A stretch of DNA of 64,000 nt, taken from assembly GCF_020171525.1 (NCBI RefSeq), contig NZ_JAIVAI010000001.1, forward strand, positions 1,426,001 through 1,490,000. The letters are read 5' to 3'. This DNA comes from Halobacillus yeomjeoni (GTDB lineage Bacteria > Bacillota > Bacilli > Bacillales > Halobacillaceae). The notes below the pieces were generated by a model that saw only the letters and a list, made by a program, of their open reading frames with translations, made no database searches and was not told the DNA's origin. Shown here one piece after another: positions 9,681 to 60,713 of the stretch. Position 1 is the stretch's first letter. The number at the start of each line of letters is the position of its first letter. The position numbers and the translations under genes are program-made.

Positions 9681-9922
9681 GGCTCTGTTATTGCTTGGTG
9701 TTGTTATTACACATGTGAGCTCATATCAGCTCTTTCTGTCCGTGAATTTGTGTGAGGCAGCCTTTTAGAATGACTTCCTTTCCGCGGGGTACCGTGAGCA
9801 CGGAAAGCGGACTGTCTTCCCTGCCGTCCCATGCTCTGAGTAAATAACGGACGGACACCTATCCCCGGGCGGGGGCTATTCAGTAATCCCTTAAAATATC
9901 AACAACAGACTTTAACAGAACC
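9681..9922 (-). mobile_element. MITE-like repeat copy A (242 bp, internally deleted)
   Basis: The ends are GGCTCTGTTA at the left and TTAACAGAACC at the right, imperfect inverted repeats of each other. The interior shares long stretches with copy B (10793-11138), including TTGCTTGGTGTTGTTATT, ACATGTGAGCTCATAT, CCTTTTAGAATGAC and AAAGCGGACTGT. It lacks the central GAGACCCCGG hairpin block, so it looks like a deletion derivative. No target-site duplication is recognisable. Orientation is called minus relative to copy E. Confidence 0.75.
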
Positions 9923-10017
9923 AATAATAGAAACGTATCCCCATTAATTTATTCCCTGAATTACAAGGTAAAAAAACGACGGGTTCTTTAAATTACCATT
10001 TTTTTAGACGGGAACCT

Positions 10018-10088
10018 AAAAAAGCTGTCCCGCACCCTCTATACGTCTATGATACTACGCATAAGAAGGGAGGAACAGCTTTTCGGCC
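10018..10088 (-). terminator. Probable terminator of the second gbsR-type gene
   Basis: On the minus strand AAAAGCTGTTCC and GGGACAGCTTTT form a long imperfect stem ending in T6. The loop is large, which lowers confidence. Confidence 0.5.
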
Positions 10089-10094
10089 AAACAT

Positions 10095-10658
10095 CTATTT
10101 TGGCGGTTTTTTCTGATCGATTTTTGGCACATAGTTGAATATTTCTCCAGACTCGACCACATGGATGAAGTTCAGTAACCAACGATAATAATTTTGAGCA
10201 TATTCCAAACGCTCAATATCCTTATTGATTTTTTCTTTTAAGGAATCATCATCCGTCTCTTCTTTTAAATTCTCCAATTCATGGATGGTTTCATCTGCCT
10301 CTTCAATATTCGTCTCCGTATGATGCCTCCAGCGACTTCCAAACAAAGAAGTAAAGGATTTATACCAATCTTCTTCAGACTTGTACAAATCCTTGCGCAC
10401 TCCTTTTTTAAAAGAAGGCTCAACCATCTTCATGTCTGATAACGCACGCACACCGGTAGACATACTGGTTTTACTCATTTCAAGAGCATCCCGCATGTCA
10501 TCCAAAGTCATAGGATCCTCGGAAAAATAAAGCACCCCGTATAATCTGCCGATGGATGGCGTGACCCCATATAAGCTCATATTTTTTGCTATCACTTGAA
10601 TAAATTGTTCAATCGTTTCTTCGTAATGTTCCCAATCATTTTTCTTCTCTTCAGGCAA
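10095..10658 (-). CDS. gbsR: GbsR-type choline/betaine-responsive transcriptional regulator
   Basis: This is a 187-aa regulator closely resembling GbsR, which represses choline uptake and betaine synthesis genes in Bacillaceae. Conserved features are SLYGVTPSIGRLYGVLYF, the helix-turn-helix with MSKTSMSTGVRAL, the wing KKGVRKDLYK and the C-terminal YYRWLLNFIHVVESGEIF, which belongs to the effector pocket region in GbsR. A TTG start follows GGAGGG. There is no gbsA/gbsB or choline transporter next to it; instead it is bracketed by repeat copies A and B between yhaM and yhaN. Its targets therefore probably lie elsewhere. Confidence 0.88.
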   Translation of the reverse strand: MPEEKKNDWEHYEETIEQFIQVIAKNMSLYGVTPSIGRLYGVLYFSEDPMTLDDMRDALEMSKTSMSTGVRALSDMKMVEPSFKKGVRKDLYKSEEDWYKSFTSLFGSRWRHHTETNIEEADETIHELENLKEETDDDSLKEKINKDIERLEYAQNYYRWLLNFIHVVESGEIFNYVPKIDQKKPPK

Positions 10659-10698
10659 TGGAAACCCTCCAATTGCTTTATCATCAAATAATCTTAAA

Positions 10699-10718
10699 AC
10701 ATTTTACCATTAAAATGT
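10699..10718. promoter_or_regulatory. Inverted repeat upstream of gbsR
   Basis: ACATTTTA and TAAAATGT are separated by CCAT, about 40 bp upstream of the TTG start. It could be an autoregulatory operator or simply an AT-rich promoter element. It does not match the 20-bp palindrome near opuA. Confidence 0.35.
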
Positions 10719-10792
10719 CTGTTTTGCGAATCCTCTCTTAAACTCTGTTCCCTGCAAACCTGCATCTACCGAGAGATGTGTATTTATTATTT

Positions 10793-11138
10793 GGCTCTTT
10801 TATTGCTTGGTGTTGTTATTTCACATGTGAGCTCATATTCACACTTTCTGTCCTGAAATTTGTATGAGGCGGCCTTTTAGAATGACTCCCTTTCCGTGGG
10901 GGACCGTTACACCAACTACGAACGGAATGTTAGGGGAAACAGGTAGACTCCTGCAGGAAAGGGAATAAGGTGAGACCCCGGAGAACGAAGTTCGAGGAGA
11001 CTAAAGCGTCCCCCGCGGAAAGCGGACTGTTTTTCCCTGATATCCCATGCTCAGAGTAAATAAAGGACTGCACACCTAATCCCAGACAGGGAATATTCAG
11101 TAATTGTTTAAAATATCAACACAGACTCTAACAGAGCC
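10793..11138 (-). mobile_element. MITE-like repeat copy B (346 bp) with perfect 8-bp target duplication
   Basis: The element begins GGCTCTTTTA and ends TCTAACAGAGCC. It is flanked on both sides by TATTATTT, a perfect 8-bp target-site duplication. The interior is the most complete copy in the window and contains the hairpin block AGACTCCTGCAGG, GGTGAGACCCCGG, GAACGAAGTTC and CCGCGGAAAGCGG. No ORF of transposase character exists, so it would need a transposase supplied in trans. Confidence 0.88.
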
Positions 11139-11154
11139 TATTATTTAGGTGAAT

Positions 11155-14067
11155 TCAACGAGACAAAAGAATGGAATGTGCATCAGAGAATTCATCGACC
11201 AGCTCGTTTCTGAAACTGAAAAGAATGATTTGGTGATGACGGGATAACTCTCCAATAAGCTCATACATTTCTTTCAGACGATAACGATCAAAATGTACAA
11301 AGGCATCATCGATGATAAAAGGGAGATTCATTTGATCAGCCATCGTTTCACCTAAAGCGAATCGGAAGGATACATACAATTGATCCTTTGTCCCTCTGGA
11401 AAGCTCCTCGGTATAAAAAATCCGTCCTCTTTCATCCTCGACCGACACCCCCGCGTTTTCACCACTAAAGTGAATTCGTTGATATCGATCGAGGGTCAAC
11501 TTTTTAAAGTTGTATTCTGCTTTCTCTATGACTGCCGGTAAGTAAAGACGTTTGTATTGTTCCTTCGTCTTTTTAAGAATCTCTCTGGCCACTTGATATT
11601 TGGCCCATTCCTTCGCTTCTTCCTTCAGCATGGACTTTTCCATTTCATATCGATGAATCAGCTCCGAATGCTGTTCTGATTTTTCCAATTGATCGATTAC
11701 CGTCTTTATGTCTGATAATCTTTGCTGGTATTCACGAAGTCTTTTCTCTGTCTGGTCGATCTCCCCCTGTAAAGAGGCTGACTCCATCCGTACAGCTGAT
11801 TCGTCCGGGACCTTCTCCCAGACCGAAAAGAATTCTTGTTCATCTCTGGATAAAAGGCTCTTCACCTGCTGCTGCAATTGTTTCGACATCTCGAGCGTTT
11901 GCTGATATTCTTCATAACTTTGAAGTTTCCGGTAAAATTCCTCCTCAGAATCCACCCCTGCCATAGCAAATAGTTGTTTTCGCTTCTCTTCATACGGATG
12001 GATTTGCAGCAGGACATCATTCAACTTTTCTTCATGATTTTTCAATTGCAGAGAAAGACGCTCCATTTGTTCAGCTTTATTATTCTGTTCTGTCCACCAT
12101 TCTATGAGTTGTTTCCAACATTCATCGGCTGATTCCTCAGTTTTCCCCCTGCCGAAGTGCTGACAGAACTGAGTTAATTCATCCTCCATCTTATGCATTT
12201 TGAATTCATAATCCTTGATTTCTGCATTCAAATGTAAGTATTCTTCATTTCTCTGCTGTGCTTGGATCAATAAATGATATAACTCTGTCCAATGTCTGAC
12301 AGGCAGAGAAGCGAGAAAAGGATAATGGCTTACCTGCTCCTCTAGCCTTGCTTCCAACCTGCGACGTCGTTGAGATAAATTCCTTCTCTTTTCTTCGAGG
12401 CGTATCTCCTCCTGCCGCCAATACTTCCTTTGATCTTTCATATGATTAAGATGTGACTTTTCATTTTCATATTTCTGCACCATTCTTCTGGCATCCTCTA
12501 AACTCTTTTCTGCAGGAACTTGGGTTACATTTTGTTTTTGCACATCAGGCAACCCTTTGATTTTTCGATGTTTTTGAAATGCCCAATATGCGGCTCCCAC
12601 TCCAATAAGAGTCGCTAAATAGCCAAGACTCGGATTCGATGAAAACCAGGCCATCCCCCATCCAGCTCCTATCAATACTACTGTGAACACCAGCCATTGA
12701 TTTCTTTGTTGCTTGAGTTCCAGAGCATTTTGCGGACGCCCGGAAGCTGCCATTTCATATGCATGGTCGATTTGGTTTGTGTAGGTCCGCAGCTCTGAGT
12801 CACTAATCATTTCTTTTTGAGCAGTGTCCAACCGTTCTTCCAATTTCATGATCTCATTATCAGCTTCAGACTCTTGCTCTATCAATCGTTGTTCCTCTTG
12901 CTCTGTTTCTTTTTTCTCCTCCCTCAACTCTCTCCATGTCTCTTCTATGTAAAAAGGAAAGGGGTATTCTTGTAACTCTTCTTCATCAATCGGTATACTC
13001 ATCTTTTTAATATCTTGATCCAGTTGGTGATAGATGTCTTGAGCACGGGCTTTCAACTGTTCAAGGGTATGCTTTGCTTTATCAAAGGAATCCTTTCGAT
13101 CCAATAAAGATTGCGCTTGATTCAAAAGCTCTTCATCAGTTTTATGACTCTCAAACCTGGATAACTCTTGTTCAATCTCTCTTTTATTCATAGTCAACTG
13201 ATGTTTCTCACTCTCAAGGGGCAAAAGTCGATCTTTCAAATTCTGATACCTTTCCCTTCCTTCAGGAGGAAAATCAGAAGTGGATTCTACCTCTCCAAGC
13301 TTTGCTTTCGCTTGGTGGTACTCAGAAATCACTGATATTGATTTCAACAATTGCTCATAGCTGAACCAGAGTCTTTGACTTTCTTTCAACTTATCTTCCA
13401 TTTGAGTGATTTCTGCTATGCAGCCTTCTTTGGAATCCAAAAGGGTCTGATAGTTGTATTCATTCTTCTCTGCAGTATTCTTATCTCTGTTCGTTTTTTC
13501 AACTTCATTTAATCGCTGATTGATTTTAGGATTTTTTCCTTTAGGTTTGAATCGGTCATTGATTTGTTTCTCCAGCCAATTTTCCGTTTCATAGATCCGA
13601 TCAGAGCCTGTCATCCCTATGCTCATCAATGCTTCTCCTAAATGGTGACCAGAGAGCTGCTGTATTTCCATCAAATCTTCGGCACTGAAGCTGAAAATAG
13701 ACTGATACACTTCCCGGCTTGTTCCTTTCAGTAAATGACTAAGCCAACCCTCATCCATGACTTCACCGTTCTCCGACTGACAAACCGCTTTTCCGTTATT
13801 CCGATTATCAATCCTCTCAATAGTCAAACGTCCGTACTCAGAAGTCGATACAATCAAACGCCCCCCTAAACTCCCACCGGATTTAGGCAAGTAAAGGTCC
13901 CGCTTTTTTGATGGTAATCCAAATAGAATATAGAGGATGAACTGACGGAGTGTAGACTTTCCAGCTTCATTTTCACCAGTAATGACATTAATATTTTCTT
14001 CTTCAACGTGGATGGTATGATCTTTCCACTTCCCAAAACCATAGATATTCATCTCAATAATCTTCAT
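11155..14067 (-). CDS. yhaN: SbcC/Rad50-like ATPase YhaN
   Basis: This is a large AAA-type DNA repair ATPase (970 aa) that pairs with the nuclease YhaO. The N-terminal Walker A motif GENEAGKST is at about residues 31-39. Long coiled-coil arms follow, interrupted by a hydrophobic hairpin near residues 450-490 (VFTVVLIGAGWGMAWF, then a second segment), which is typical of YhaN and suggests membrane association. The C-terminus has the signature LSRGTKDQLY and Walker B PFIIDDAFVHFD. Its start overlaps the yhaO stop by 4 bp (ATGA), indicating translational coupling. Copy B of the repeat begins immediately downstream. Confidence 0.93.
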   Translation of the reverse strand: MKIIEMNIYGFGKWKDHTIHVEEENINVITGENEAGKSTLRQFILYILFGLPSKKRDLYLPKSGGSLGGRLIVSTSEYGRLTIERIDNRNNGKAVCQSENGEVMDEGWLSHLLKGTSREVYQSIFSFSAEDLMEIQQLSGHHLGEALMSIGMTGSDRIYETENWLEKQINDRFKPKGKNPKINQRLNEVEKTNRDKNTAEKNEYNYQTLLDSKEGCIAEITQMEDKLKESQRLWFSYEQLLKSISVISEYHQAKAKLGEVESTSDFPPEGRERYQNLKDRLLPLESEKHQLTMNKREIEQELSRFESHKTDEELLNQAQSLLDRKDSFDKAKHTLEQLKARAQDIYHQLDQDIKKMSIPIDEEELQEYPFPFYIEETWRELREEKKETEQEEQRLIEQESEADNEIMKLEERLDTAQKEMISDSELRTYTNQIDHAYEMAASGRPQNALELKQQRNQWLVFTVVLIGAGWGMAWFSSNPSLGYLATLIGVGAAYWAFQKHRKIKGLPDVQKQNVTQVPAEKSLEDARRMVQKYENEKSHLNHMKDQRKYWRQEEIRLEEKRRNLSQRRRRLEARLEEQVSHYPFLASLPVRHWTELYHLLIQAQQRNEEYLHLNAEIKDYEFKMHKMEDELTQFCQHFGRGKTEESADECWKQLIEWWTEQNNKAEQMERLSLQLKNHEEKLNDVLLQIHPYEEKRKQLFAMAGVDSEEEFYRKLQSYEEYQQTLEMSKQLQQQVKSLLSRDEQEFFSVWEKVPDESAVRMESASLQGEIDQTEKRLREYQQRLSDIKTVIDQLEKSEQHSELIHRYEMEKSMLKEEAKEWAKYQVAREILKKTKEQYKRLYLPAVIEKAEYNFKKLTLDRYQRIHFSGENAGVSVEDERGRIFYTEELSRGTKDQLYVSFRFALGETMADQMNLPFIIDDAFVHFDRYRLKEMYELIGELSRHHQIILFSFRNELVDEFSDAHSILLSR

Positions 14068-15314
14068 GAATGATTATCCTCTCTCATCAATAGCTGTTCA
14101 ATCGCGACCCGTTTCGCATCTTCTTTTACTTCTTTCATCTCTTCTTTCGTAAGGACAGATAAGTATTTAGATGCTTTTCTATGTTGAAATAAAGGGGAAA
14201 TCCATTCTTCTATTTCTTCTTCGGTGACTTCATCGGCTCCTTTGACTAATTCTCCGGCAAAGTGCTGGCTTCGGATCAATTCCTCTTCATCCCAGACAGG
14301 CTGCTCTGAAATCATTACTCGGTCTATCCAAATCCATTCTTCTTCAAAATTTTCACCTTCATTGACGATCTCGACCCATTCTTCAAGAATGCCTTCACTA
14401 TCCCATTTGTTCAAAATCCCAGAAGATGAAACGAGTTCAACACTCAGTACCACAGAAGAATTCGTATGACTGATTTGCTGCTTTGCATTCTCAAAAATGG
14501 ATTCCAAATCTTTGGGGGAGGATACTCCTTCGCAGGAAACCGTGACTTCTTCATAAACAAAACTTTGAAGTGGGAGAAAAGTGAGGTTCCATTCCTCACC
14601 ATTATGTTCGACCAGGTAACACCCTTTTTCCCCCGACTCTTTTCTCGAACGGCCCTGAATGTTCCCTGGATATACAACCGGTGGAAGATGGGACAATGTT
14701 TGACGTTGGTGAATATGTCCGAGTGCCCAGTAATCCATGTTCCGCTCATATAATTCCTCCATCTTAAAAGGAGCATAAACATCATGGTCCGTGTTCGTCT
14801 CCAAACTTCCATGAAGAAGAGCGATATGAAACATTGGATCTTCTTCTTTTCGATACTCTTGTACTTTTCGCTCACGCACTGCCCGATTTTCAAAGCTGAA
14901 CCCATATAAATTGGCTTTATGTATGCCACCTTTCCAATATGAAAACCGCTCAACCTCTTCGGTCTGGAATACATGTACATTCTCCGGGTAATCAATCGGA
15001 TACCTGTTCCCTTTGACATAATCATGATTTCCGTGACTCACATAGACAGGAATCCCTTTTTTACATAACTTTTTAAAACCATCCCTCAAGTGAACCTGAG
15101 CTTTTAAACTTCTTATGGATTCATTAAAGAGATCCCCGACAATCAATACGAAGTCCACATCGTAATACAAAGCCTGATCGATTAACCGGTCGAAAGCTTC
15201 AAAGGTACTTGACCTCATCTGCTTTAGCAGGCGTTCCGGTAAATGGCTTTTACTTTTGAATAAGCTGTCCAAGTGTAAATCTGCGCTATGGATGAAACGC
15301 AAGGTGTCTCCCAT
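14064..15314 (-). CDS. yhaO: SbcD-like metallophosphoesterase YhaO
   Basis: This is the nuclease subunit partner of YhaN (416 aa). The calcineurin-like phosphoesterase motifs are in order: HSADLHLD, GDLFNE, HGNHDY, HGS and ALGHIHQRQ. The ATG at 15314 is preferred because the domain begins at once (MGDTLRFIHSADLH) and GGATGGAG lies upstream; earlier in-frame starts up to 15404 would extend into the promoter and LexA-like box. It forms an operon with yhaN. The C-terminal 130 residues are acidic and family-specific. Confidence 0.93.
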   Translation of the reverse strand: MGDTLRFIHSADLHLDSLFKSKSHLPERLLKQMRSSTFEAFDRLIDQALYYDVDFVLIVGDLFNESIRSLKAQVHLRDGFKKLCKKGIPVYVSHGNHDYVKGNRYPIDYPENVHVFQTEEVERFSYWKGGIHKANLYGFSFENRAVRERKVQEYRKEEDPMFHIALLHGSLETNTDHDVYAPFKMEELYERNMDYWALGHIHQRQTLSHLPPVVYPGNIQGRSRKESGEKGCYLVEHNGEEWNLTFLPLQSFVYEEVTVSCEGVSSPKDLESIFENAKQQISHTNSSVVLSVELVSSSGILNKWDSEGILEEWVEIVNEGENFEEEWIWIDRVMISEQPVWDEEELIRSQHFAGELVKGADEVTEEEIEEWISPLFQHRKASKYLSVLTKEEMKEVKEDAKRVAIEQLLMREDNHS

Positions 15315-15365
15315 GATTACATGCTCCATTCTTTCCTTTTTCTTCATTTTATCAAAGCTCCATAA

Positions 15366-15379
15366 CGAATGCACGTTCG
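15366..15379 (-). promoter_or_regulatory. LexA (SOS) box-like operator upstream of yhaO-yhaN
   Basis: On the minus strand CGAACGTGCATTCG matches 12 of 14 positions of the Bacillus LexA consensus (CGAAC-N4-GTTYC type). It lies just upstream of TGATAAAAT, an extended -10-like sequence about 30 bp before the yhaO start. From memory, yhaO is in the B. subtilis SOS regulon, which agrees with the site. Confidence 0.6.
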
Positions 15380-15390
15380 CTTTTACACAC

Positions 15391-15420
15391 AAAAAAACCC
15401 CCATCTATAAAAGATGGAGA
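15391..15420 (-). terminator. Terminator of the yhaQ-yhaP operon
   Basis: On the minus strand CTCCATC / GATGGGGG form a short stem with loop TTTTATA, followed by T7. Confidence 0.7.
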
Positions 15421-15445
15421 GAAATATAATTGTAAGATAAGCATA

Positions 15446-17916: not shown

Positions 17917-17929
17917 AGAAAATGACCTA

Positions 17930-26743: not shown

Positions 26744-28039
26744 TTATGTACGTATGATTGTTTTTTGTTCAGGATCAGTGAAATTCTTTGCGTCTTCGAC
26801 TCCTTTTTCAATGTCGACGAACTTCAGTAAAATCATTCCTGCCAGGAAGAAAACGATCAAGGAGAGGATGCCATATCTCCCTGAGCCTGTCATTTGAACG
26901 ACCAATGCAGCAACAAAAGGACCGAACATCGCTGCAAATTTCGAAGAGATGCCGTAAAAACCGAAAAACTCGGCATGACGATCTTCTGGAACCATGCGTC
27001 CAAAAATAGAACGACTCAAGGACTGCGCTCCTCCTTGGACAAACCCTACACATACAGCCAAGATGTAAAAATGAAGTGCTGAAGTCATGAAGTATCCTAA
27101 TATGACGATGATTAAATAAATGAATAAAGCCAACATAAGAGCCCGTTTAGCCGTGATCTTACCAGCCAGCCATCCAAAGAAAAAGGCAAAAGGAATGCCT
27201 ACAAACTGTGTAATCAATAAGGCAGTAATCAAATCCGTTGTTCCGATTCCAAGATCTCTTCCATATATCGTTGCCATTTTTATAATGGTGGAAATGCCGT
27301 CATTGAATAACCAGAAAGCAAATAAAAACAGAAGCAACTGCTTAAAGTTAGGGAGTTCCTTAATGGTTGAACTTACCCTCTTGAATCCAATTTTCATATA
27401 GGAACTGTCCCGCTTCTGGTTCACTTTCTTTTCCTCTTTGATATTTTTCATCAACGGAATGGAGAAAATCAGCCACCATACCCCCACCGAAACAAACGAT
27501 AGTTTTGTCCCTATCAAACCATTTGGGAGCCCGAACCATTCCGGTTTCATTATCATCATCAAGTTGATCGCGAGTAATACTCCCCCGCCGATATAACCGA
27601 AGGCATATCCTCCCGCAGAAACTTTATCAATTTCTTCTTCATCTGCCACTTCCGGTAAAAAAGCGTCATAAAAAATATTGCCACCTGAGAAACCGATCGT
27701 ACCAAGAATTAAAAGGACAGAAGCAAATAAGTAATCCCCTTCACCTACAAAAGCCATCAGTATACTCGCTGTCATTCCCATAAAAGCAAAAAACATCAAG
27801 AACTTCTTCTTTGCTGCTGAAAAATCACTGATCGCTCCAAGAAACGGTGCCAATATCGCTACGATTAAGACGGCAATAGATTGGGAATAACCCCAGTAAC
27901 TGATCGCAAGCGACTCCTTCACTCCTTTGGCTGCGACATCGTAATAAAACACAGGCAGGACAGCAGCCATCATCGTAGTCGCAAAAGCAGAATTGCCGAA
28001 ATCATAAAACATCCAGCTTAGAACGGGTTTCTTTTTCAT
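26744..28039 (-). CDS. UMF1-family MFS transporter
   Basis: This is a 431-aa, 12-helix transporter of the UMF1 (Atg22-like) group. The N-terminal hallmark SWMFYDFGNSAFATTMMAAVLPVFY is characteristic, as are GAISDFSAAKKKFL and FYDAFLPEVADEEEIDKVSAGGYAFGYIGGG. The fungal relative Atg22 exports amino acids from vacuoles; bacterial substrates are not established. The ATG at 28039 follows GGGGG; the upstream ATG at 28057 has no ribosome site. It is monocistronic. Confidence 0.88.
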   Translation of the reverse strand: MKKKPVLSWMFYDFGNSAFATTMMAAVLPVFYYDVAAKGVKESLAISYWGYSQSIAVLIVAILAPFLGAISDFSAAKKKFLMFFAFMGMTASILMAFVGEGDYLFASVLLILGTIGFSGGNIFYDAFLPEVADEEEIDKVSAGGYAFGYIGGGVLLAINLMMIMKPEWFGLPNGLIGTKLSFVSVGVWWLIFSIPLMKNIKEEKKVNQKRDSSYMKIGFKRVSSTIKELPNFKQLLLFLFAFWLFNDGISTIIKMATIYGRDLGIGTTDLITALLITQFVGIPFAFFFGWLAGKITAKRALMLALFIYLIIVILGYFMTSALHFYILAVCVGFVQGGAQSLSRSIFGRMVPEDRHAEFFGFYGISSKFAAMFGPFVAALVVQMTGSGRYGILSLIVFFLAGMILLKFVDIEKGVEDAKNFTDPEQKTIIRT

Positions 28040-28115
28040 AAAAAACCCCCAATTCATGTTATTTTAAATAAGTATAGCATGTACATGTTATTGATATTTG
28101 TTTTTTTAAACCTAA

Positions 28116-28537
28116 GGATCTGTTGAAGTGTATTGTTGATATTTTTTAACGGTGAGTTTTTTGTCAGAGGGTGGGAGAGAAGGGAAAACAGTCCGCTTTC
28201 CGCGGGGAACGCTGAGCCTCCTCGAACTCCGTTCTCCGGGGTCTCACCTTGTTCCTTTTTCCCGCAGGAGTCTCCCTGTTTTCCCTTCTCTCCCATTCAT
28301 AGTTTCGCTTTATAAAGGTATATGATTTTTCCGTTCACCTATTTTGATGAGGTGGCCTTGGAAATGAGGAGACTCCTGTGGGATGAATGTACATCGTGAG
28401 ACCCCGGAAGGCGGAAGCCTGAGGAGACTCACGGTACCCCACTGAAAGCGAGTCATTCTAAAAGGCTGCCTCACACGAATTCAGCGCATGAAAGTACTTT
28501 TGAAAGCTGAATTTACAACACAAGCATTTACAGAGCC
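28116..28537 (+). mobile_element. MITE-like repeat copy C (422 bp), longest copy
   Basis: The left end GGATCTGTTGAAGTG and right end TTTACAGAGCC are imperfect inverted repeats. Inside are two hairpin modules in opposite orientation: AAACAGTCCGCTTTCC through CGCAGGAGTCTCC, and GGAGACTCCTGTGGG through GAAAGCGAGTCATTC. The right part (CATTCTAAAAGGCTGCCTCA) matches copies A and B. No clean target duplication is seen. It occupies the 525-bp gap upstream of an SDR gene. Confidence 0.75.
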
Positions 28538-28564
28538 AAAAATTATTCTCTCAGAGGTGAAGTT

Positions 28565-29185
28565 ATGAAAATTGCAGTATTTGGAGCTACCGGGCGCGTG
28601 GGGGCTAGAGTGGTCAATAAAGCTATGTCAGATGGTCATGAAGTCAAAGCTCTCGTAAGGGATGAAGACAAAGCGAAAGATATCATTCCTGGAGCAGAAC
28701 TAGTGACAGGAGATGTCAAAAACCGCGAAGATATAGAAAATACCTTGAAAGGGTGCGAATGTGTCTTCAGTGGTTTGGGCACAGATAAAACAGACACTCT
28801 TTCTACTTATATCCCTATGGTTATCGATCTAATGAATGAACATGGAATAAAGAGAATCGTCACGATCGGAACCGCTGGAATCTTGAACAGTCGTTTTGAA
28901 GAAGGGAAGTTCCGTTTCCAATCCAATGAATCCAAGCGTAAATTGACGTTTGCGGCAGAAGAACATTTAAAAGTATATCAAGCCCTCAACAAGAGTAGAC
29001 TTGAGTGGACAATCATCTGTCCAACCTACCTGCCTGAAGGTGATTCAGAAGGTGAGGTTCGTTATGAAATCAACTACCTGCCTGAGGGTGGAAAGAAAGT
29101 GACCACAGAAGATACGGCAGAATTTGCTTATCAAGAACTGATTCAAAAACGATTTATTCACCAACGTGTGGGTATATGCTATTAA
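28565..29185 (+). CDS. NAD(P)-binding atypical SDR (YwnB-like)
   Basis: This is a 206-aa Rossmann-fold protein with the nucleotide motif GATGRVGARVV at residues 7-17. A TIGTAG segment follows the central strand. Catalytic YxxxK is replaced in this atypical SDR group, which includes flavin-reductase-like and NmrA-like proteins. The pattern SGLGTDKTD after the fourth strand fits the YwnB-type family. AGAGGTGAAG precedes the ATG. It is monocistronic, just downstream of repeat copy C. The substrate is unknown. Confidence 0.82.
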   Translation: MKIAVFGATGRVGARVVNKAMSDGHEVKALVRDEDKAKDIIPGAELVTGDVKNREDIENTLKGCECVFSGLGTDKTDTLSTYIPMVIDLMNEHGIKRIVTIGTAGILNSRFEEGKFRFQSNESKRKLTFAAEEHLKVYQALNKSRLEWTIICPTYLPEGDSEGEVRYEINYLPEGGKKVTTEDTAEFAYQELIQKRFIHQRVGICY

Positions 29186-48601: not shown

Positions 48602-48783
48602 GTTCAGTTACTGTAAGATTCACATGTGATTAGGTGAGACCCCGGAAAACGAAGTTTGAGGATGCTAAAGCGGACTGTTTTCCCTTCCCTCCCACACTTT
48701 GGATTAAGAACGGACTGAACCTGCACTCCCATACGAGTAGAATTGTAAGAAATCGTTTGTCAACAACAGCCTCTAACAGAACC
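48602..48783 (-). mobile_element. MITE-like repeat copy D (degenerate)
   Basis: The right end CTCTAACAGAACC matches the family. Inside, TTCACATGTGA, GGTGAGACCCCGGA, AACGAAGTTTGAGGA and AAAGCGGACTGTTTTCCCT match copy B in order. The left end is degenerate and its boundary (about 48602) is approximate. No target duplication is seen, consistent with an old copy. Confidence 0.6.
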
Positions 48784-53414: not shown

Positions 53415-53600
53415 GCTCTATTCCCCCATATATTCGAAGCTATCTTGAAAATAAGTATACCAGATATCCCTCTGATAAAATTGACTACTTTTAGCGAATG
53501 TAAGGGGGACGAATGAAACCACACTTATTCAATGGTCTATGAAACAATACGGAACATGATCAAAGTCAAACGGTTTAAGTCTCCGTACCGACCTAAGAAA

Positions 53601-53644
53601 AAAACTGATTCGATCGTCTTAATGTGACGGATCAAATCAGTTTT
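53601..53644 (-). terminator. Terminator of spoVR
   Basis: AAAACTGATT(C)GATC and GGATCAAATCAGTTTT pair around a loop of about 14 bases. Confidence 0.75.
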
Positions 53645-53653
53645 AATGGGCAG

Positions 53654-55063
53654 CTATAAGTATTTCTTCTGGACTTTTTTCCCTCCGAAGCTGAATACGA
53701 CACCGCGGTTTTCCACTTGAGTTTCCATATGGACAGGTCGGCCCCACAATTGATAGACATACGGGAGGACCTTTTCCAAGTAACCGATATCCAGTTCAAC
53801 ATCTTCAAAATGATGCTTCAAATAAAGCTCCCCGCTTTTCACATAATCCCCATCCTGGACTGTGATGTAGGGGAATCCACCATTGACTCTCATCGTGACC
53901 AGCTGATCACGGACAGCCTCGTGATCTTTGTCGGTGATTTTATATTTTTGTCCCTGTTTTTGAAATAAATATAAATCCTCACGTCGGACGAGTTCTTTCG
54001 TTAAATAGTTGCGTATAAAGCTTTGATCCGACTCGATTTCCCGAACCTCAAAGATTTTCTCACGGCCGGAACCCGGCTCAATTCCATGGGACTTCATTTC
54101 ATCTGTCGGGTGATCATAACGCTCTTCAATATCTTCAAAAATTTTCAACCCTAAGTAATAAGGATTCAATTGTGTTTTCGAAGGCTGAACGACGCTCGCA
54201 TTCAATTTTGCGAATTCGATGGCTTCATCACTGGTAAGTTCCATCTCTCTTAAAATTCTGGCATGCCAATAGGAAGCCCATCCTTCGTTCATGATTTTCG
54301 TTTCAAGCTGCGGCCAGAAGTAGAGCATTTCCTCTCTCATCATCGTCAATATATCCCTCTGCCAGTCATCCAATTCACGACTATATTGTTCAATGAACAA
54401 GAGCAAGTCCTTCTCAGGTCGAGGCGGAAATTTCTTTTTCTTTTTGAAAGGCTGTTGTTCTACCGAAGATTCGTCAATATTCCACAAATCGTCGTAAGGG
54501 GTGTGCCGGAGAGGTTCTACACTTTCTTCATCATCCCCGATTGCCCAGGCAAGCTTAGGTCTTACTAAAGAAGGATCGATGTGTTCCTGAATGGCTAAAA
54601 CAGCATCAAGAAACGACTCCACTTCTTCTTTTCCATGTATTTTTTCATAGGCAGCAATGCGCTCTGCTGTGGCCGCCATACTCTCTACCATATCTCTCTT
54701 TGTATTTTGAAAACGGGCATTATTTTTGAAAAAATCACAGTGAGCCAGAACATGAGCGACAATCAATTTATTTTGGATCAAGCTGTTGGAATTCAATAAG
54801 AATGCATAACATGGATTTGAATTGATGACTAATTCATAAATTTTGCTCAATCCTAAATCGTATTGAAGCTTCATTTTGTAATATTGTTTTCCAAAACTCC
54901 AGTGGGAAAAGCGCGTCGGCATTCCATAGGCACCAAATGTATAAATGATATCGTCTGGACAGACTTCGTAACGCATCGGATAAAAATCCAGCCCGAACCC
55001 CTTCGCAATTTCTGTAATTTCCCGGATTGCGTATTCGAGCTTTTTGTGGTCCTGTGGTTTCAA
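53654..55063 (-). CDS. spoVR: SpoVR family protein
   Basis: This is a 469-aa protein of the stage V sporulation protein R family, required for normal spore cortex in B. subtilis. Conserved blocks are [38 protein letters not shown] (read in shorter pieces), [11 protein letters not shown] and [13 protein letters not shown]. The HxxH and EGWASYWH patterns hint at a metal site. A TTG start follows GGAGGGGG. It is monocistronic. Bacillus spoVR is transcribed by sigma-E in the mother cell; I could not place a sigma-E promoter with confidence. Confidence 0.95.
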
Positions 55064-55139
55064 AAGGTCCCCCTCCTTGATAGTCGCTTACATTACTATA
55101 TGAGGAAGGAAGAAGGTTCATGAAAATAGATATAGAACC

Positions 55140-55637
55140 TTAATAGAGAAGTTTGGCCATTATGTATTCATCAACCCACTGGCCATCGACCTTGAGAACC
55201 TCTTTTTTCTTACCTTCTATTTGAAAGCCCACTTTTTCATATAAACGAAGAGCAACGAAATTATGGACCATGACCGTCAGTTCCAACCGGTGTATCTCAT
55301 GCTCCCTTGCCCAATTTTCTAAATGTGTAAAAAGCTCAGTAGCTATACCACGCCCGTGATATTCCTTGAGAACTCCTGTAACCACATGAGCGACATGCTT
55401 ATTCCGTTTAGCACTTCCCCCCATACCCATTACATGGCCTACAAGTTCCCCATTGTGTATGGCGACCAAAATCGTCGAATTGGGCTGGTGGTGAAAGGCT
55501 CTTATCATGGATTTCATTTTCTCACCATCGACAGGCCGCTCTCCTTCCTCATATAATAAAAAATCTGATTCCGATTCCAGTTTTTTTGTTAATGCAACAT
55601 AACCTTCAGCATTTTCCACTTCTATTGGAACAATCAT
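55140..55637 (-). CDS. GNAT-family N-acetyltransferase
   Basis: This is a 165-aa acetyltransferase. Motif A is HVVTGVLKEYHGRGIATELFTHL (HGRGIA pyrophosphate loop), and motif B is LTVMVHNFVALRLYEKVGFQIEG. It resembles ribosomal-protein or polyamine-type GNATs, but the acceptor is unknown. GGGGTG precedes the ATG. It lies just downstream of spoVR in reverse gene order but is transcribed from its own unit on the minus strand. Confidence 0.86.
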   Translation of the reverse strand: MIVPIEVENAEGYVALTKKLESESDFLLYEEGERPVDGEKMKSMIRAFHHQPNSTILVAIHNGELVGHVMGMGGSAKRNKHVAHVVTGVLKEYHGRGIATELFTHLENWAREHEIHRLELTVMVHNFVALRLYEKVGFQIEGKKKEVLKVDGQWVDEYIMAKLLY

Positions 55638-55731
55638 TACAAAGCACCCCTGATAAGTTTCTTTTTATTGTAACGCAAATCCCTCCATAATCCTCCCTTT
55701 TTCTGTATACTGAACCTCAGGTGGTGATTTT

Positions 55732-56445
55732 TTGAATCAAAATGTGAAGAAATCTTATCAAAAGTTGACTTCCCACTATGTCAGGGATGTAGACACTAAA
55801 CCATACAACGCTTACTTAGAACGACCGGCAATGGTGGAAGCTATGCCTCCACTAAAAGATAAACAGGTGCTGGATGCCGGATGCGCCGCTGGATGGTATG
55901 CACAATACATGGCTGAAGAAGGCGCAGTAGTAACAGCTGTCGATTTCAGTCATTCAATGGTGGAAGCTACCCGCAGGAGAACGGAAACTTTGAACGTCAC
56001 AACATTCGTTCATGACATTTCTACACAATTTCCATTAGCTTCTGAAAGTTTAGATGTAATCGTCAGTTCCCTCACCCTTCACTACATCAAAGATTGGGAA
56101 GCTGTTTTTAAAGAATTTGCCCGTCTCTTAAAACCGGGAGGAACTTTGTTATTTTCCACTCACCATCCATTCATGGATTATGATCGTTTTGACGTAGAAA
56201 ATTACTATGACGTTCAATTGCTCAAAGACCAGTGGACGGTAAACGGTGAGAGAGTGCCGATGGAGTTTTACCGCCGTCCTTTGAACCAGATCATCAATTT
56301 GACTATGGATCAATTCAATCTCTCCCGCATCATAGAACCGCTCCCAACGGAGGAATTCAAACACCTTTCACCTCAAAGTTATGAAAAAGTCCGGACCACC
56401 CCGAATTTCATCATTCTGAAAGCAGAAAAACCAGAGGCCCGCTAA
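55732..56445 (+). CDS. Class I SAM-dependent methyltransferase
   Basis: This is a 237-aa methyltransferase. Motif I is VLDAGCAAGWYAQYM, the acidic residue is in AVDFSHSMV, and SLDVIVSSLTLHYIKDW and LKPGGTLLFSTHHPF follow as motifs II-III. UbiE/Methyltransf_11 type. The start is TTG at 55732 behind AGGTGGTG. It is monocistronic, convergent with yhcN and shares its terminator. The substrate is not predictable. Confidence 0.88.
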   Translation: MNQNVKKSYQKLTSHYVRDVDTKPYNAYLERPAMVEAMPPLKDKQVLDAGCAAGWYAQYMAEEGAVVTAVDFSHSMVEATRRRTETLNVTTFVHDISTQFPLASESLDVIVSSLTLHYIKDWEAVFKEFARLLKPGGTLLFSTHHPFMDYDRFDVENYYDVQLLKDQWTVNGERVPMEFYRRPLNQIINLTMDQFNLSRIIEPLPTEEFKHLSPQSYEKVRTTPNFIILKAEKPEAR

Positions 56446-56458
56446 GGCTTCTGGTTTA
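56428..56458. terminator. Bidirectional terminator before yhcN
   Basis: AAACCAGAGGCC and GGCTTCTGGTTT pair with one mismatch around CGCTAA. Confidence 0.75.
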
Positions 56459-56461
56459 TGG

Positions 56462-57001
56462 TTATCTTGCTTCTGGGAACATCCGATCAACCATTTGACC
56501 GAAGTCTTGGAAAAATCCCTGCATCGGTTCTCCGCTTCGTTCATCGTTGATATACGTATTCGTCAAATCGATAAAATCCGGATTTGATGACACATACACA
56601 TTATTGATGTCCTGATCTGTATCTTTCACTGCTTTGGTAATATCTCTTTCGATCTTATCCGTAAGGTCTGCAGCCCCTCGGTTCCTGTCCAACACAGCTG
56701 CTACATATGCGTTATCCCTTGTTTTCAAGACATACGCTTTATCAACACCAGGGACGTTTTTTGTAATGTTCTGCGCAGCAGTTCTTGCCACTTGGTAATT
56801 CGTATTGTGAACCATCCCACGGTCATTATCATATTTGTTGGCACGATCGGTACCTTCGTACATCCGATCCGCCATGCGCTGAAAGCGGGTATTTTGAACA
56901 CCTTCATAATTGCCTTCACCGGTTCCTATTTCCTGCTCTGCCTGACACGCAACCAAAGAAGAAGCAGCTAAAAGACCGATGGCGAACGCTTTCCATTTCA
57001 T
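56462..57001 (-). CDS. yhcN: YhcN/YlaJ-family spore lipoprotein
   Basis: This is a 179-aa lipoprotein found in the inner spore membrane of Bacillus. The signal peptide ends in lipobox LVAC (Cys19). The domain reads ANKYDNDRGMVHNTNYQVARTAAQNITKNVPGVDKAYVLKTRDNAYVAAVLD (in pieces), characteristic of YhcN/YlaJ, followed by KIERDITKAVKDTDQDINNVYVSSNPDF. AAGGAGGAA precedes the ATG. It is probably sigma-G controlled. The exact role in spores or germination is not known. Confidence 0.92.
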   Translation of the reverse strand: MKWKAFAIGLLAASSLVACQAEQEIGTGEGNYEGVQNTRFQRMADRMYEGTDRANKYDNDRGMVHNTNYQVARTAAQNITKNVPGVDKAYVLKTRDNAYVAAVLDRNRGAADLTDKIERDITKAVKDTDQDINNVYVSSNPDFIDLTNTYINDERSGEPMQGFFQDFGQMVDRMFPEAR

Positions 57002-57100
57002 TGTTCATTCCTCCTTAGCAGCTTATTACTAGTATGCTTCTAAGGAATTCAAATATTCTGTGGAGATGGGGTAGTAATATTCGTCAAAATAGGCAAAATA

Positions 57101-57128
57101 AAAAGGCCTTCCCTGTGGAAAGACCTTT
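57101..57128 (-). terminator. Terminator of the 156-aa membrane protein gene
   Basis: AAAGGTCTTTCC / GGAAGGCCTTTT on the minus strand has loop ACAG and is followed by T-rich sequence. Confidence 0.7.
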
Positions 57129-57597
57129 AATTCCCTGCAAACGGCAGGGACCACCATAAGTGGATGAAGAGAATGAATGCCAAAAATGTTCCATTGATGA
57201 ACATCAAAAAAACAGGAAGCACTTTGAAAGCACCTGTGATTTTCGTATAGCTTTTTCTCATGAAAATAAACCCGGTAATAAAAATTATGTATAAGGACAA
57301 AAACCATATCCATTTGTAAGGAGTTGAAGATCGAATTCCGAGCTCAAACCCTAAGGCAAACACTAACCAGGCAGATAAAAATGAGATAATGGAAACAGGA
57401 ACATATTTTTGATCAGTCTCGATATACATGATGGAAACGATCGATGCGACTAATACAAGGCCGCCGATGATTTCAGTGATTAAAATCAAGATATCATGAG
57501 ATGAACCTGACTCGAGAGTGACGAAACTCAAAGTCAAGAACAAGCCAAAAGTGATCACGGCACCTAAATTGGTATACACCCAATGCTTTTCACTCAT
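57127..57597 (-). CDS. Hypothetical membrane protein
   Basis: This is a 156-aa protein with five likely membrane helices (about residues 8-27, 34-57, 65-85, 92-112 and 123-145). No charged functional motif or known domain is recognised. AAAGGGGG precedes the ATG. It is monocistronic, between yhcN and the divergent YhdB-like gene. Confidence 0.7.
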   Translation of the reverse strand: MSEKHWVYTNLGAVITFGLFLTLSFVTLESGSSHDILILITEIIGGLVLVASIVSIMYIETDQKYVPVSIISFLSAWLVFALGFELGIRSSTPYKWIWFLSLYIIFITGFIFMRKSYTKITGAFKVLPVFLMFINGTFLAFILFIHLWWSLPFAGN

Positions 57598-57784
57598 GGC
57601 TATCCCCCTTTCTTTTTCTTCTCTATATCAAAACATTTCCATACCATCATAACAAATTTTTCAAATTGTGCGGAAAAAAACAACAAAACGAGTCGTAATT
57701 TCCCTAACTGTGACGAACTTCCTGATTGTTGATTACCCTCTTCGGTGATACTAAAAACACTCCTTTCAAAAGGAAGTGTAACTG

Positions 57785-58027
57785 ATGAACAATCAGGATT
57801 ATGAAAAAGCATTGCATTTCATGATCTGGGGGCAGTGGGACGACTTACTTGTATTGATGGTAAGGACAAGAGATCATTTTTTATCAAAAAAAATTGAAAC
57901 GTTTCTCCATTCCTGCTATTACCCCAGCAATGAAATTGAAATGCTTGAATCCCATGAAAATTTACTGAATTACCTGGACCATGCACAATCAACCACGCCA
58001 CATTCAAACCTGTATATATTCAGATAA
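57785..58027 (+). CDS. yhdB: Small YhdB-like protein
   Basis: This is an 80-aa soluble protein (MNNQDYEKALHFMIWGQWDDLLVLMVRTRDHFLSKKIETFLHSCYY, given in pieces elsewhere as WDDLLVLMVRTRD and KKIETFLH). It resembles the small YhdB family known near spoVR in Bacillus; the assignment is from memory and tentative. AAGGAAGTG precedes the ATG and a strong terminator follows at 58056. A 70-aa ORF on the opposite strand (57600-57812) has no such signals. Confidence 0.55.
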   Translation: MNNQDYEKALHFMIWGQWDDLLVLMVRTRDHFLSKKIETFLHSCYYPSNEIEMLESHENLLNYLDHAQSTTPHSNLYIFR

Positions 58028-58055
58028 AATACCATCACGATCATGATAAGCAAAT

Positions 58056-58088
58056 AAAAAAGCGAACCAAAACGGTTCGCTTTTTTTA
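58056..58088. terminator. Bidirectional terminator
   Basis: AAAAAGCGAACC and GGTTCGCTTTTT pair around AAAAC between convergent genes. Confidence 0.92.
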
Positions 58089-58089
58089 A

Positions 58090-58815
58090 TTACATTCTTG
58101 GATACTGCTGGATTAATGGGTGAAGCTGTAACTCATCGATGACCATATGCTTTGGAGCCTGTACCATATAGACAATCGCTTCTGCTACATCTTGAACCTT
58201 CAGCCATTCCGCTTTTTCCGGATCTCCCTGGGTGCCATTAGCGAAGTATGTGTCCACCATACCTGGATTCACTGTCCCTACACGGATTCCGTTTCCACGC
58301 ACTTCCTGGGCGAGAGACCCCATAAAGCCTTGAACGGCATATTTCGTTGCTGTATATAAGGATCCACCTTCAGGGATGGTATAGCGGGATACGTCTGAAG
58401 CTACCGTCACAATCGTACCGAAATTCTGCTTCTTCATTAATGGAAGGACTGCTTTACTTGCGAGGAACACGCCTTGAACGTTTACTTCAAACGTTTTTTT
58501 CCATTCTTCAACCGTGACCTCTTCGACAGCCTTGAATCCTCCGATACCGGCATTATTTATGAGGATATCCACTTTTCCATACGCATTTTTGGTTGCTTCC
58601 ACCACATGATTCACATCATCTTCTTTGCAGACATCCGCTGTGAAGGATAAAACGTTGGAATATCCTTTTTCCTCTAATTCTTGTTTCGTTTTATGGACTT
58701 CATCCGAACTTCCTAACAAAGAAAGTTTCACATCATTTTCTGCCAATTGAAAAGCCACTTCTTTTCCAATTCCTCTTGAAGCACCTGTAATGATAGCTAC
58801 CTGTTCCTTAAGCAT
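58090..58815 (-). CDS. Short-chain dehydrogenase/reductase (FabG-like)
   Basis: This is a 241-aa classical SDR. The cofactor motif is TGASRGIGKEVA, NNAG appears in LINNAGIGGF, the catalytic Ser is in TVASDVSRYTIPEGGSLYTATKYAV with YTATK as the Tyr-Lys pair. The length and PGMVDTYF region are like 3-oxoacyl reductases, but isolated SDRs often act on other ketones. AGGAGGAAG precedes the ATG. It starts 14 bp after the yhcX stop on the same strand, so cotranscription with yhcX is likely. Confidence 0.86.
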   Translation of the reverse strand: MLKEQVAIITGASRGIGKEVAFQLAENDVKLSLLGSSDEVHKTKQELEEKGYSNVLSFTADVCKEDDVNHVVEATKNAYGKVDILINNAGIGGFKAVEEVTVEEWKKTFEVNVQGVFLASKAVLPLMKKQNFGTIVTVASDVSRYTIPEGGSLYTATKYAVQGFMGSLAQEVRGNGIRVGTVNPGMVDTYFANGTQGDPEKAEWLKVQDVAEAIVYMVQAPKHMVIDELQLHPLIQQYPRM

Positions 58816-58829
58816 GTTTCTTCCTCCTC

Positions 58830-60392
58830 TTACGTTCGTTCAGGTTTGATTTCTGTTCCAAGTTTATATTTCAATTCAAATAAATCCCTGCGCCGATCTC
58901 TGAGCTGACGGACCGTACCCGACTTTCTTTGACGGCGCAGTATTTCCAAATCCACATCACCGACAACAACGGTCTCGACATTCGGGTTACATTCACCGAT
59001 TATACCATCTCTGGCAAACTCAAAATCAGAAGGAGTGAAAATACCGGATTGAGCATATTGGATGTCCATGTTTTCCACCTGGGTGAGGTTACCGACTGTT
59101 CCGGATATTACTGTATACACTTGGTTCTCAACCGCTCGTGCCTGTGCACAATACCGTACCCGCAAGTACCCTTGTCGATCATCTGTACAGAATGGAACGA
59201 AGATGATATTCGCCCCTTGATCCACAGCAAACCTCGCAAGCTCCGGGAATTGAATGTCATAACATATTTGGATAGCGATCTTACCGCAATCGGTATCAAA
59301 TACTCTCACGGCGTCCCCTGGCTGAATCCCCCACCATGTCCGCTCGTTGGGTGTGACGTGAATTTTATACTGCTTCTCAATGGTCCCATCTCTCCGGAAC
59401 AAGTATGAAATGTTGTATATTTTCTCATCTTCTTCTACAAAATGCGATCCGCCGATGATGTTCACATTGTACCTGACAGCCAGATGGGTGAACATTTCAA
59501 TGTAATCCTCGGTAAACTCAGAAAGACGCCGTACAGCTTTTGAAGGCACTTTTTCATCTAAGAAAGACATCAACTGTGTAGTGAATATTTCAGGGAATAC
59601 GGCAAAATCACTACCATAATCAGAAGCGACATCGACGTAATACTCACATTGTTTCGCAAATTCTTCGAATGAGTCGATATTTTTCATCATGTACTGGATG
59701 ACCATGATCCGGACTGGGTTACTCGTTTTGAAATGACGTTTAGTTCGTGCTCGATAATCAATGTTGTTCCATTCCATTAGTGTGGCATATTTTGATGATT
59801 TCTCATCATCCGGCAAGTAATTCGGGTTGATTCTCATGACTGTGAACCCATTCATGATTTGGAAGGTCAATACAGGATCGTATATGTTTTGATTCCTTAC
59901 TTCCTCCACATATTGTCGGGGAGTCATTTCATTCTCGTATTGATGATAATTAGGGATCCGCCCGCCGATGATGATACTTTTCAAATTCAAGGCAGCCGCC
60001 AATTCTTTACGTGCTTCATAAAGGCGGCGGCCGATTTTCATTCTTCTGAATTCAGGATGCACCATAATTTCAATCCCATAGAGGTTATATCCATCAGGGT
60101 CATGGTTTGTGATATAGCCTTCATCTGTAATATCGTCCCATGTATGTTTATCATCATATTCGTCAAAATTCACAATCAAGCTTGAGCAGCTTCCGATAAT
60201 TTCACCATCATACTCAACAACGAACTGCCCTTCCGGGAACAGTTTCAAATGGCTTTCTAAATGTTCTCTTTTCCAAGGGTCCATGCCTGGAAAACATAAT
60301 TTTTGGAGCTCGAATATCTGTTCAATATCTTGATCCTGCATATTTCGAACGATCATTTTCTTTTCAAATTGCGTCAAATCAATCTTAGACAT
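58830..60392 (-). CDS. yhcX: GNAT-nitrilase fusion protein YhcX
   Basis: This is a 520-aa two-domain protein. Residues 15-200 are a GNAT acetyltransferase domain (VHPEFRRMKIGRRLYEARKELA). Residues 220-500 are a carbon-nitrogen hydrolase (nitrilase) domain with the Glu-Lys-Cys triad: Glu in FAVFPEIFTT, Lys in RDGTIEKQYKIHVTPNE and Cys in IAIQICYDIQFPELAR. The same fusion is known as YhcX in B. subtilis, where an auxin-related amidohydrolase activity has been suggested. The ATG at 60392 is preferred over the GTG at 60413, which has no ribosome site. It leads an operon with the SDR gene. Confidence 0.92.
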   Translation of the reverse strand: MSKIDLTQFEKKMIVRNMQDQDIEQIFELQKLCFPGMDPWKREHLESHLKLFPEGQFVVEYDGEIIGSCSSLIVNFDEYDDKHTWDDITDEGYITNHDPDGYNLYGIEIMVHPEFRRMKIGRRLYEARKELAAALNLKSIIIGGRIPNYHQYENEMTPRQYVEEVRNQNIYDPVLTFQIMNGFTVMRINPNYLPDDEKSSKYATLMEWNNIDYRARTKRHFKTSNPVRIMVIQYMMKNIDSFEEFAKQCEYYVDVASDYGSDFAVFPEIFTTQLMSFLDEKVPSKAVRRLSEFTEDYIEMFTHLAVRYNVNIIGGSHFVEEDEKIYNISYLFRRDGTIEKQYKIHVTPNERTWWGIQPGDAVRVFDTDCGKIAIQICYDIQFPELARFAVDQGANIIFVPFCTDDRQGYLRVRYCAQARAVENQVYTVISGTVGNLTQVENMDIQYAQSGIFTPSDFEFARDGIIGECNPNVETVVVGDVDLEILRRQRKSGTVRQLRDRRRDLFELKYKLGTEIKPERT

Positions 60393-60527
60393 ATCCCATT
60401 CCCACTCCTTCACAAGTTGTCATATCCTGGTTCTATCGTACTCAACGAATCATACTTCTGTCTAGTTATTCCCTATCTTCTCAACAACCCTCTGCCTTAT
60501 GATTGATACTTGTTCCCTTATGTAAAA

Positions 60528-60713
60528 GGCTCTGTTAAAGTCTGTTGTTGATATTTTAAACAATTACTAAATAGTCCTCGTCTGGAATTAGGGGGCCGGT
60601 CTGTTATTCACTCAGAGCATGGGATGGCAGGGAAAACAGTCCGCTTTCCGCGGGGGACGCTTTAGCCTCCTCACCTAGTTCCTTTTTCCTGCAGGAGTCT
60701 ACCTGTCAGAGCC
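60528..60713 (+). mobile_element. MITE-like repeat copy E (186 bp) with perfect 8-bp target duplication
   Basis: The element starts GGCTCTGTTAAAGTC and ends TGTCAGAGCC. It is flanked on both sides by ATGTAAAA, a perfect 8-bp target-site duplication. It is a short deletion derivative that keeps GTTGTTGATATTTTAAACAA, AGAGCATGGGATG, AAACAGTCCGCTTTCCGCGG and TCCTGCAGGAGTCTACCTGT in the order of copy B read in reverse. It fills most of the 386-bp gap upstream of yhcX. Confidence 0.88.

Follow-up and report, generated by a model that had tools for sequence, protein, structure and literature searches.

A dispersed IS1595-type MITE family with inverted hairpin modules in Halobacillus yeomjeoni

Five intergenic repeats lie in a stretch of 64,000 nucleotides of the Halobacillus yeomjeoni genome (the window, taken at its full length). 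They are very probably members of a MITE family that both descends from and was moved by IS1595-type insertion sequences, and that carries two inverted and constrained hairpin modules. That the copies are a MITE is near certain. The source of the transposase and the constraint on the modules are taken up separately below.

Window copies and genomic family

All five copies proposed by the first-pass annotation were read at the following coordinates, and their mutual similarity is far above chance (E = 2e-46 for c2 against c5 and 3e-37 for c1 against c2).

9681..9922, plus strand: copy c1, 242 bp, no target duplication
10785..10792, no strand: left target duplication of c2, 8 bp, TATTATTT
10793..11138, plus strand: copy c2, 346 bp, ends GGCTCTTTTA / TAACAGAGCC
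11139..11146, no strand: right target duplication of c2, 8 bp, TATTATTT
28116..28537, minus strand: copy c3, 422 bp, both modules, no duplication
28168..28303, plus strand: hairpin module inside c3, matching model R1 with E = 1.4e-26 (G000:C1:1454168-1454303, window offset 1426000)
48602..48783, plus strand: copy c4, 182 bp, no duplication; truncated, decayed and with a degenerate left end
60520..60527, no strand: left target duplication of c5, 8 bp, ATGTAAAA
60528..60713, minus strand: copy c5, 186 bp, truncated, one partial module
60714..60721, no strand: right target duplication of c5, 8 bp, ATGTAAAA

Mechanical ORFs (not gene calls) of at least 150 aa cover 79% of the window, and none of at least 90 aa overlaps c1-c5, in keeping with the earlier description of the copies as intergenic and free of a transposase. 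The two 8-bp duplications it reported, at c2 and c5, are perfect; c1, c3 and c4 have none. Its claim of shared ends holds for the boundaries common to the copies but overlooks the degeneracy of some ends in the window: the left ends of c4 (GTTCAGTTAC) and c3 (GGATCTGTTG), and the right end of c5, which has shrunk to GGCTCTGACA while the left remains IS1595-like (GGCTCTGTTAAAGTCTGTTGTTGATATT).

None of the five is a full, undamaged copy. A full element measures about 468-472 bp, and the window copies are decayed or deleted versions of it. As had been surmised, internal deletions underlie differences in size. Copy c1 has lost the stretch between the left portion of module A and the right portion of module B, which are now fused (c1 aligns with positions 3-120 and 349-472 of the full element), while c2 retains module B intact and has lost most of module A (positions 3-116 and 236-471); c4 and c5 are truncated. 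Copy c3 has diverged, with 78% identity to a full copy over the aligned part.

"Five-copy" thus describes the window and not the genome, where a 22-base end pattern, with up to three mismatches allowed, has 108 matches (none for the reversed pattern). BLAST pieces number at least 87 for c2 (with 40 of 126 first-look candidates scored) and at least 105 for c3 (40 of 143). Perfect 8-bp target duplications flank 30 of 61 end-paired elements, as against 0 of 488 in a shifted control; at least seven of the eight bases agree in 37 (control, 1 of 488) and fewer than seven in the other 24, some of the 61 being mispairings, as ends were paired by a nearest-end rule. Duplications of 5-7 or 9-11 bp occur at most once for each length, and the target duplications are 93% AT. 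Shared boundaries and duplications, together with internal deletions and the missing transposase, bear out the MITE reading.

The hairpin modules

The GC-rich core consists of two inverted copies, A and B, of a hairpin module of about 120 bp. The hairpins had been noticed earlier, but not their arrangement as an inverted pair of modules belonging to a covarying repeat of wide occurrence. A covariance model of the module (R1) matches 56 of 61 genomes and 25 of 30 genera, which bears out the first-pass annotation's remark that other Bacillaceae have similar repeats with GAGACCCCGG; the repeat to which this core belongs is spread far more widely than the MITE itself. The module is found across the order, part of its copies lying within an IS1595-type frame. 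Rfam gave no match at gathering score in the window, and in five relative loci two sub-threshold matches and none at gathering score; no match to the module was found in the phage collection searched.

Module pairs covary strongly (score 0.465, against 0.172 when shuffled); a weaker measure, which takes in further pair types, was reached by 23 of 500 shuffles. In the 27 full copies of the H. yeomjeoni genome, variation in the modules is about a third of that in the remainder of the element, and 12 compensatory double changes were counted where 0.54 were expected, alongside 97 one-sided changes. Since paired bases change together, the shape of the hairpin seems to matter, and it is likely, though not proved, that selection acts on it.

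There is perhaps one chance in a few, however, that the conservation and the paired changes stem from mutational and repair processes (template switching between the two arms, or gene conversion among copies) instead of selection. Palindromes can be corrected from arm to arm in a single event. Also in favour of this reading are the scarcity of intermediates among the variant pairs in A1, which are mostly Watson-Crick (880 Watson-Crick, 38 A.C, 16 G.T, 80 other and 1 gap), and the excess of one-sided over paired changes noted above, and at an orthologous site genomes G006 and G002 carry different module types, which suggests exchange. Against it, the spacers of these copies show no homogenisation (22-38% in most bins in G002), invariance also extends to several module columns that are unpaired, and the paired changes in H. 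yeomjeoni are scattered over nine separate pairs. The surplus of A.C over G.T in A1 hinted at a strand preference of the hairpin, but in the H. yeomjeoni copies the one-sided changes (A.C 36, G.T 20) lean the same way in both modules, and, as the modules are mutually inverted, nothing can be concluded about strand.

Selection, if it acts, could act after insertion. On a tentative reading, to which we give about the same modest weight, the hairpin doublet is a functional nucleic-acid element of the whole order Bacillales, borne by IS1595-type MITEs, whose structure is selected once inserted while ends and spacer decay; it would then be domesticated or symbiotic and not neutral debris. Genes around the modules are tandem in 46 cases, convergent in 11 and divergent in 5 in this genome (n = 62), and 28, 11 and 6 elsewhere (n = 45), counts too weak to argue for function. 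One module of 62 here and one of 45 elsewhere lie inside an open frame of at least 150 codons. Three places where G002 carries a module element were compared with up to five relatives, and at each of them some relatives retain the element or nothing but its outer ends; the third place has no trace of it in G007 and G012. The shared sites are old common insertions with internal deletions.

IS1595 and other candidate helpers

The first-pass annotation had listed IS1595, ISL3, IS6 and IS66 as candidate helpers, and of these four IS1595 fits. Against the best of 17 IS1595-family elements in Bacillaceae, the ends of the MITE agree at 27 and 25 of 28 bases, whereas the best matches inside the transposase genes reach only 19 and 17; one MITE end, GGCTCTGTTATTGCTTGGTGTTGTTATT, is less similar to the IS ends than the other. 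Elsewhere, 42 of 60 IS1595 elements examined have ends of the same type and a perfect 8-bp duplication, a result that also holds when the pair of ends is picked by end similarity alone. Their transposase matches NCBIfam NF033547 with E = 2.5e-62; NF033547, PF12762 and the zinc domain NF050000 score over cut-off, and PF12760 below it. Insertion sequences with the same termini thus exist in Bacillaceae, and IS1595 stands as the probable helper.

The H. yeomjeoni genome itself holds only two short transposase relics. One lies in an element of 1,079 bp with the same ends as the MITE and the duplication AATTTTTT, and comprises residues 1-75 of an IS1595 transposase in two broken pieces; the other (L225) has no paired ends. 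No intact IS1595 transposase and no PF12762 match was found in this draft of 15 contigs, 98.5% complete, in which an intact gene could sit in an assembly gap. Of 16 relic loci examined, from 25 given, four, in four other genomes of the genus, combine these ends with perfect duplications, and the other 12 lack that combination. Among 44 genomes of the family, only G031 and G029 have intact transposase genes. In G031 a module-bearing element (L097) has IS1595-type ends and a perfect duplication. The relics and the matching IS1595 elements together point to an IS1595-derived MITE family whose helper has probably been lost from this genome, leaving the family stranded.

Judging from these matches, an IS1595 transposase would have moved the MITE in trans. 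The DDE enzyme would recognise ends of about 27 bp (GGCTCTGTTAAAG..TGTTGATATT), and the element would enter AT-rich intergenic DNA with the making of an 8-bp duplication. Its cargo would be the structured module in two inverted copies, with pairing held by constraint. The module would most likely be a DNA or RNA hairpin that aids persistence, either because mobility requires the structure or because it is useful or harmless behind genes.

It is quite improbable that a RAYT (Y1 transposase) instead moves the modules as REP/BIME-like doublets, the IS1595 ends being incidental. Inverted module pairs occur in 32 of 47 loci, as in REPINs, and Y1_Tnp genes are present in 17 of the 22 genomes from the genus, mostly one to three each, yet none of 10 Y1 loci examined (of 33 places listed) has a module match within 1.5 kb; three of the 10 are strong IS200-like matches. 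G013 and G018 carry the full MITE yet have no Y1_Tnp match. Y1 enzymes are not known to give 8-bp duplications or IS1595-type ends.

Less probable still are ISL3 and IS6, which had also been named as helpers. Both give 8-bp duplications, with ends like GGCTCT or GGNNCTGTT, and their first 10 bases are superficially similar, but the IS1595 ends match over 28 bases. The ISL3 (PF01610) and IS6/IS240 (PF13610) transposases had no match in this genome in searches that were positive in some control genomes, which counts against the two as candidates; as PF12762 is likewise absent, absence alone cannot decide between helpers.

That the copies are unrelated terminator-like sequences is scarcely credible given their shared boundaries and target duplications, even though the hairpins adjoin genes and terminator-like sites are somewhat in excess (4 in 9600-11200, with 1.2 expected, and 2 in 28000-28650, with 1.0). 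At none of those sites is a hairpin of complete module size joined to a T tract, which speaks against a standard terminator.

Known systems and implications

Bacterial MITEs such as Correia/NEMIS, bcr1 and ERIC are short, non-coding, palindromic, multicopy and intergenic, and REPIN/BIME doublets with RAYTs are inverted hairpin pairs at high copy. The present family shares the character of the former, but its helper is assigned to IS1595 and its interior is two inverted covarying modules common across the order. It resembles the latter in its inverted pairs at high copy, but has modules of about 120 bp in an IS1595-type frame, with no RAYT adjacency in 10 loci.

IS1595 insertion sequences (Siguier et al. 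2009, as cited in PMC8101967 and PMC12561309) are like the MITE in ends, AT-rich 8-bp duplications and intergenic preference. The MITE is not itself one of them, as it lacks a DDE transposase with the IS1595 domain and an N-terminal zinc ribbon. Nothing like its hairpin interior was seen in the IS1595 elements examined, save that the module profile matched one IS locus, L145, near 1197-1278, upstream of the transposase gene. No named family was found in print, as the first-pass annotation had held, but Bhal-1 may be the same repeat: a 2008 catalogue (PMC2267715) describes it as 74 bp long, with 36 copies in Bacillus halodurans, intergenic and of conserved structure, and by that description it is like the module in size of the conserved part, bacterial group, place and structure.

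A large repeat family now has a probable helper, IS1595, and paired changes mark the evolution of a single structured hairpin doublet that many genomes of the order carry dozens of times. Should the constraint come into play once the element is inserted, then the repeats have a function for the host; should it bear on mobility, then the interiors of MITEs matter in transposition. The family also offers a setting in which to place the intergenic repeats with GAGACCCCGG that recur in Bacillaceae.

Copies, ends and target duplications

The five copies reported by the first-pass annotation (c1 to c5, at 9681-9922, 10793-11138, 28116-28537, 48602-48783 and 60528-60713) lie at those positions and can be aligned with one another. 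Their placement between genes holds, in that no open frame of 90 or more amino acids overlaps any of them, and the 8-bp duplications claimed for two copies are perfect at c2 and c5 and absent at c1, c3 and c4. The family extends well past the window: one 22-base end motif, allowing up to 3 mismatches, has 108 matches in the H. yeomjeoni genome (G000; 3.27 Mb, 15 contigs), and the reversed motif has none.

Ends from the window and from examined loci of G000 (a part of the genome) were paired by a nearest-end rule, which mispairs some, giving 61 distinct elements (c4 and c5, outside the end pattern, were left out). Perfect 8-bp duplications flank 30 of the 61, as against 0/488 outward-shifted controls, and at least 7 of 8 bases agree in 37 (controls 1/488); duplications of 5-7 or 9-11 bp account for at most one case at each length. 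Full copies measure 468-472 bp. Since paired elements span 104 to 1,129 bp, internal deletion must be common. Further subfamilies (567-581 bp) share the ends but have different interiors:

G000:C1:844910-845490, MITE subfamily L111, same ends, different interior
G000:C1:898180-898756, MITE subfamily L123, same ends, different interior
G000:C3:46857-47423, MITE subfamily L116, same ends, different interior

Both of those inspected, L111 and L116, again contain related GC-rich hairpin modules.

The probable helper transposase

ISL3, IS6 and IS1595 had been among the helpers suggested. Their profiles (PF01610, PF13610 and PF12762) each have no match in G000. For IS1595 there is other evidence. 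Compared with 17 IS1595 elements (the investigator's choice from 81 loci), the MITE ends reach 27/28 and 25/28 bases at best, against 19 and 17 for the best matches within transposase genes. A Pontibacillus plasmid carries a gene annotated as an IS1595 family transposase, a member of NCBIfam NF033547; a scan of genome contigs for its relatives gave 157 loci, of which the best 80 were taken further. From these 80, 59 near-complete elements were selected and examined together with the one on the plasmid. Of the 60, 42 show termini of the form GG(C)T(C/A)TGTTAAA..TGTTGAT on both sides and are flanked by a perfect 8-bp duplication, a count that does not change when end pairs are picked by end similarity alone.

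Within G000, an element of 1,079 bp (G000:C2, L110 1038-2116) has the termini of the family, is flanked by the duplication AATTTTTT and matches the start of the plasmid transposase (88% over 28% of the element's length). A 118-aa open frame in this relic (L110:1358-1711), adjoining a full hairpin module, has no Pfam or NCBIfam match; perhaps it is a passenger gene. The second transposase relic of G000, L225, is not bounded by such ends and a perfect duplication. Across the genus the transposase was found solely in fragments (12 of 22 genomes), and 4 of 16 relic loci inspected (25 in all), in G006, G007, G009 and G013, have MITE-type ends with perfect duplications. Intact genes within the family (44 genomes) were found in G031 (two) and G029 (one).

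Published traits of the IS1595 family agree with these findings: 8-bp duplications, a DDE_Tnp_IS1595 domain and, in all groups but IS1016, an N-terminal zinc finger (PMC8101967), and for ISApl4 A/T-rich 8-bp repeats at mostly non-coding sites (PMC12561309). Judging from the sequences, an IS1595-family transposase most likely moved the MITEs in trans, and the helper would since have decayed in G000.

Two genes with a Y1_Tnp domain, G000:C6:51501-51836 (275-aa frame) and 59436-59762 (198-aa frame), are perhaps RAYT-like; 17 of the 22 genomes in the genus have such matches, and no module was found within 1.5 kb of the first gene.

Spread and history of the hairpin module

The interior of a full MITE consists of two inverted hairpin modules of about 120 bp. 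Among the matches listed, both halves of c2 with their ends occur only in G000, G013 and G018. By DNA similarity the c2 core is found in at least 42 of 61 genomes, and by a covariance model (R1), built from 35 copies out of some of the searched genomes and scored on up to 54 candidates per genome, modules are found in 56 of 61 genomes and 25 of 30 genera. Over 47 loci with module matches, mostly from relatives but with G000 included, 32 have a plus-then-minus pair, 14 have one module only and 1 has two of like orientation; gaps measure 80-669 bp.

Three places in G002, each compared with up to five relatives, are old shared insertions with decayed ends (ACAGAGCC is still discernible at one) and, in some species, internal deletions. 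At one place G006 carries a different module type; at one, G007 and G012 show no trace of the element. At sites orthologous to L336 (L338, L339 and L340), the element survives in some relatives as its outer parts alone, which shows loss of modules through internal deletion. Of 79 modules tested (80 minus one too close to a locus end), 9% and 11% have an IS1595-type end in the two 20-bp bins 80-119 bp outside, where 0.2% is expected; over 20-180 bp, 18 have an over-threshold end and 61 no detectable one. Because of that majority and the mixed G002 places, descent of the whole order-wide repeat from IS1595-type MITEs is something we infer.

No IS1595 MITE with such an interior is described in the literature searched, which had most subscription journals and ISfinder outside its reach, and the passages of PMC8632094 consulted do not mention the repeat. 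In line with the earlier statement, that literature gave no name for the family, but the module may have been recorded before, as Bhal-1 in PMC2267715.

Structure and probable constraint

From 35 diverse copies outside G000 (incomplete ones and those more than 90% alike dropped), aligned on sequence only, RNAalifold predicts 38 pairs, 29 of them with double changes. The covariation score is 0.465, against 0.172 for shuffled alignments (double-change cells 244 against 73; 0/500 shuffles as high) and 0.112-0.136 when partners are slid by 1-3 columns; further pair types number 70 against 64.5, a level reached by 23/500 shuffles. The outer stem is very variable in sequence, yet 87% of its cells are paired. 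Two blocks, CGCTTTCC and GGAGTCT, are near invariant and in part unpaired. At threshold, Rfam has no family in the window. A sub-threshold match to S. aureus tsr24 at L103:1783-1897 (32.6 bits, cut-off 50; E = 4e-4) overlaps a module at 1791-1887.

In 27 near-full G000 copies, the substitution rate is 2.8-3.0% in the modules and 8.2% outside, with private changes at 84/6,539 module letters against 110/4,450 spacer letters (p = 6e-6). Double changes, affecting both partners of a pair, number 12 cells (9 distinct events), all to Watson-Crick pairs and none non-compensatory, where independent uniform change predicts 0.18 + 0.36. Most module changes are nevertheless uncompensated, since 97 cells changed on one side only. 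In 20 G002 copies, differences per 20-bp bin are 1-12% in module 1, 8-17% in module 2 and 13-38% in the spacer (five of seven bins above 22%, one just at 22%); the copies came from the best-scoring R1 matches, a choice that favours conserved module 1 but in which module 2 played no part. Either constraint or homogenisation therefore acts on the modules, and a pattern like that of selection could also arise from template switching or gene conversion. The hairpin doublet is most likely cargo held under structural constraint, which may serve mobility or the host.
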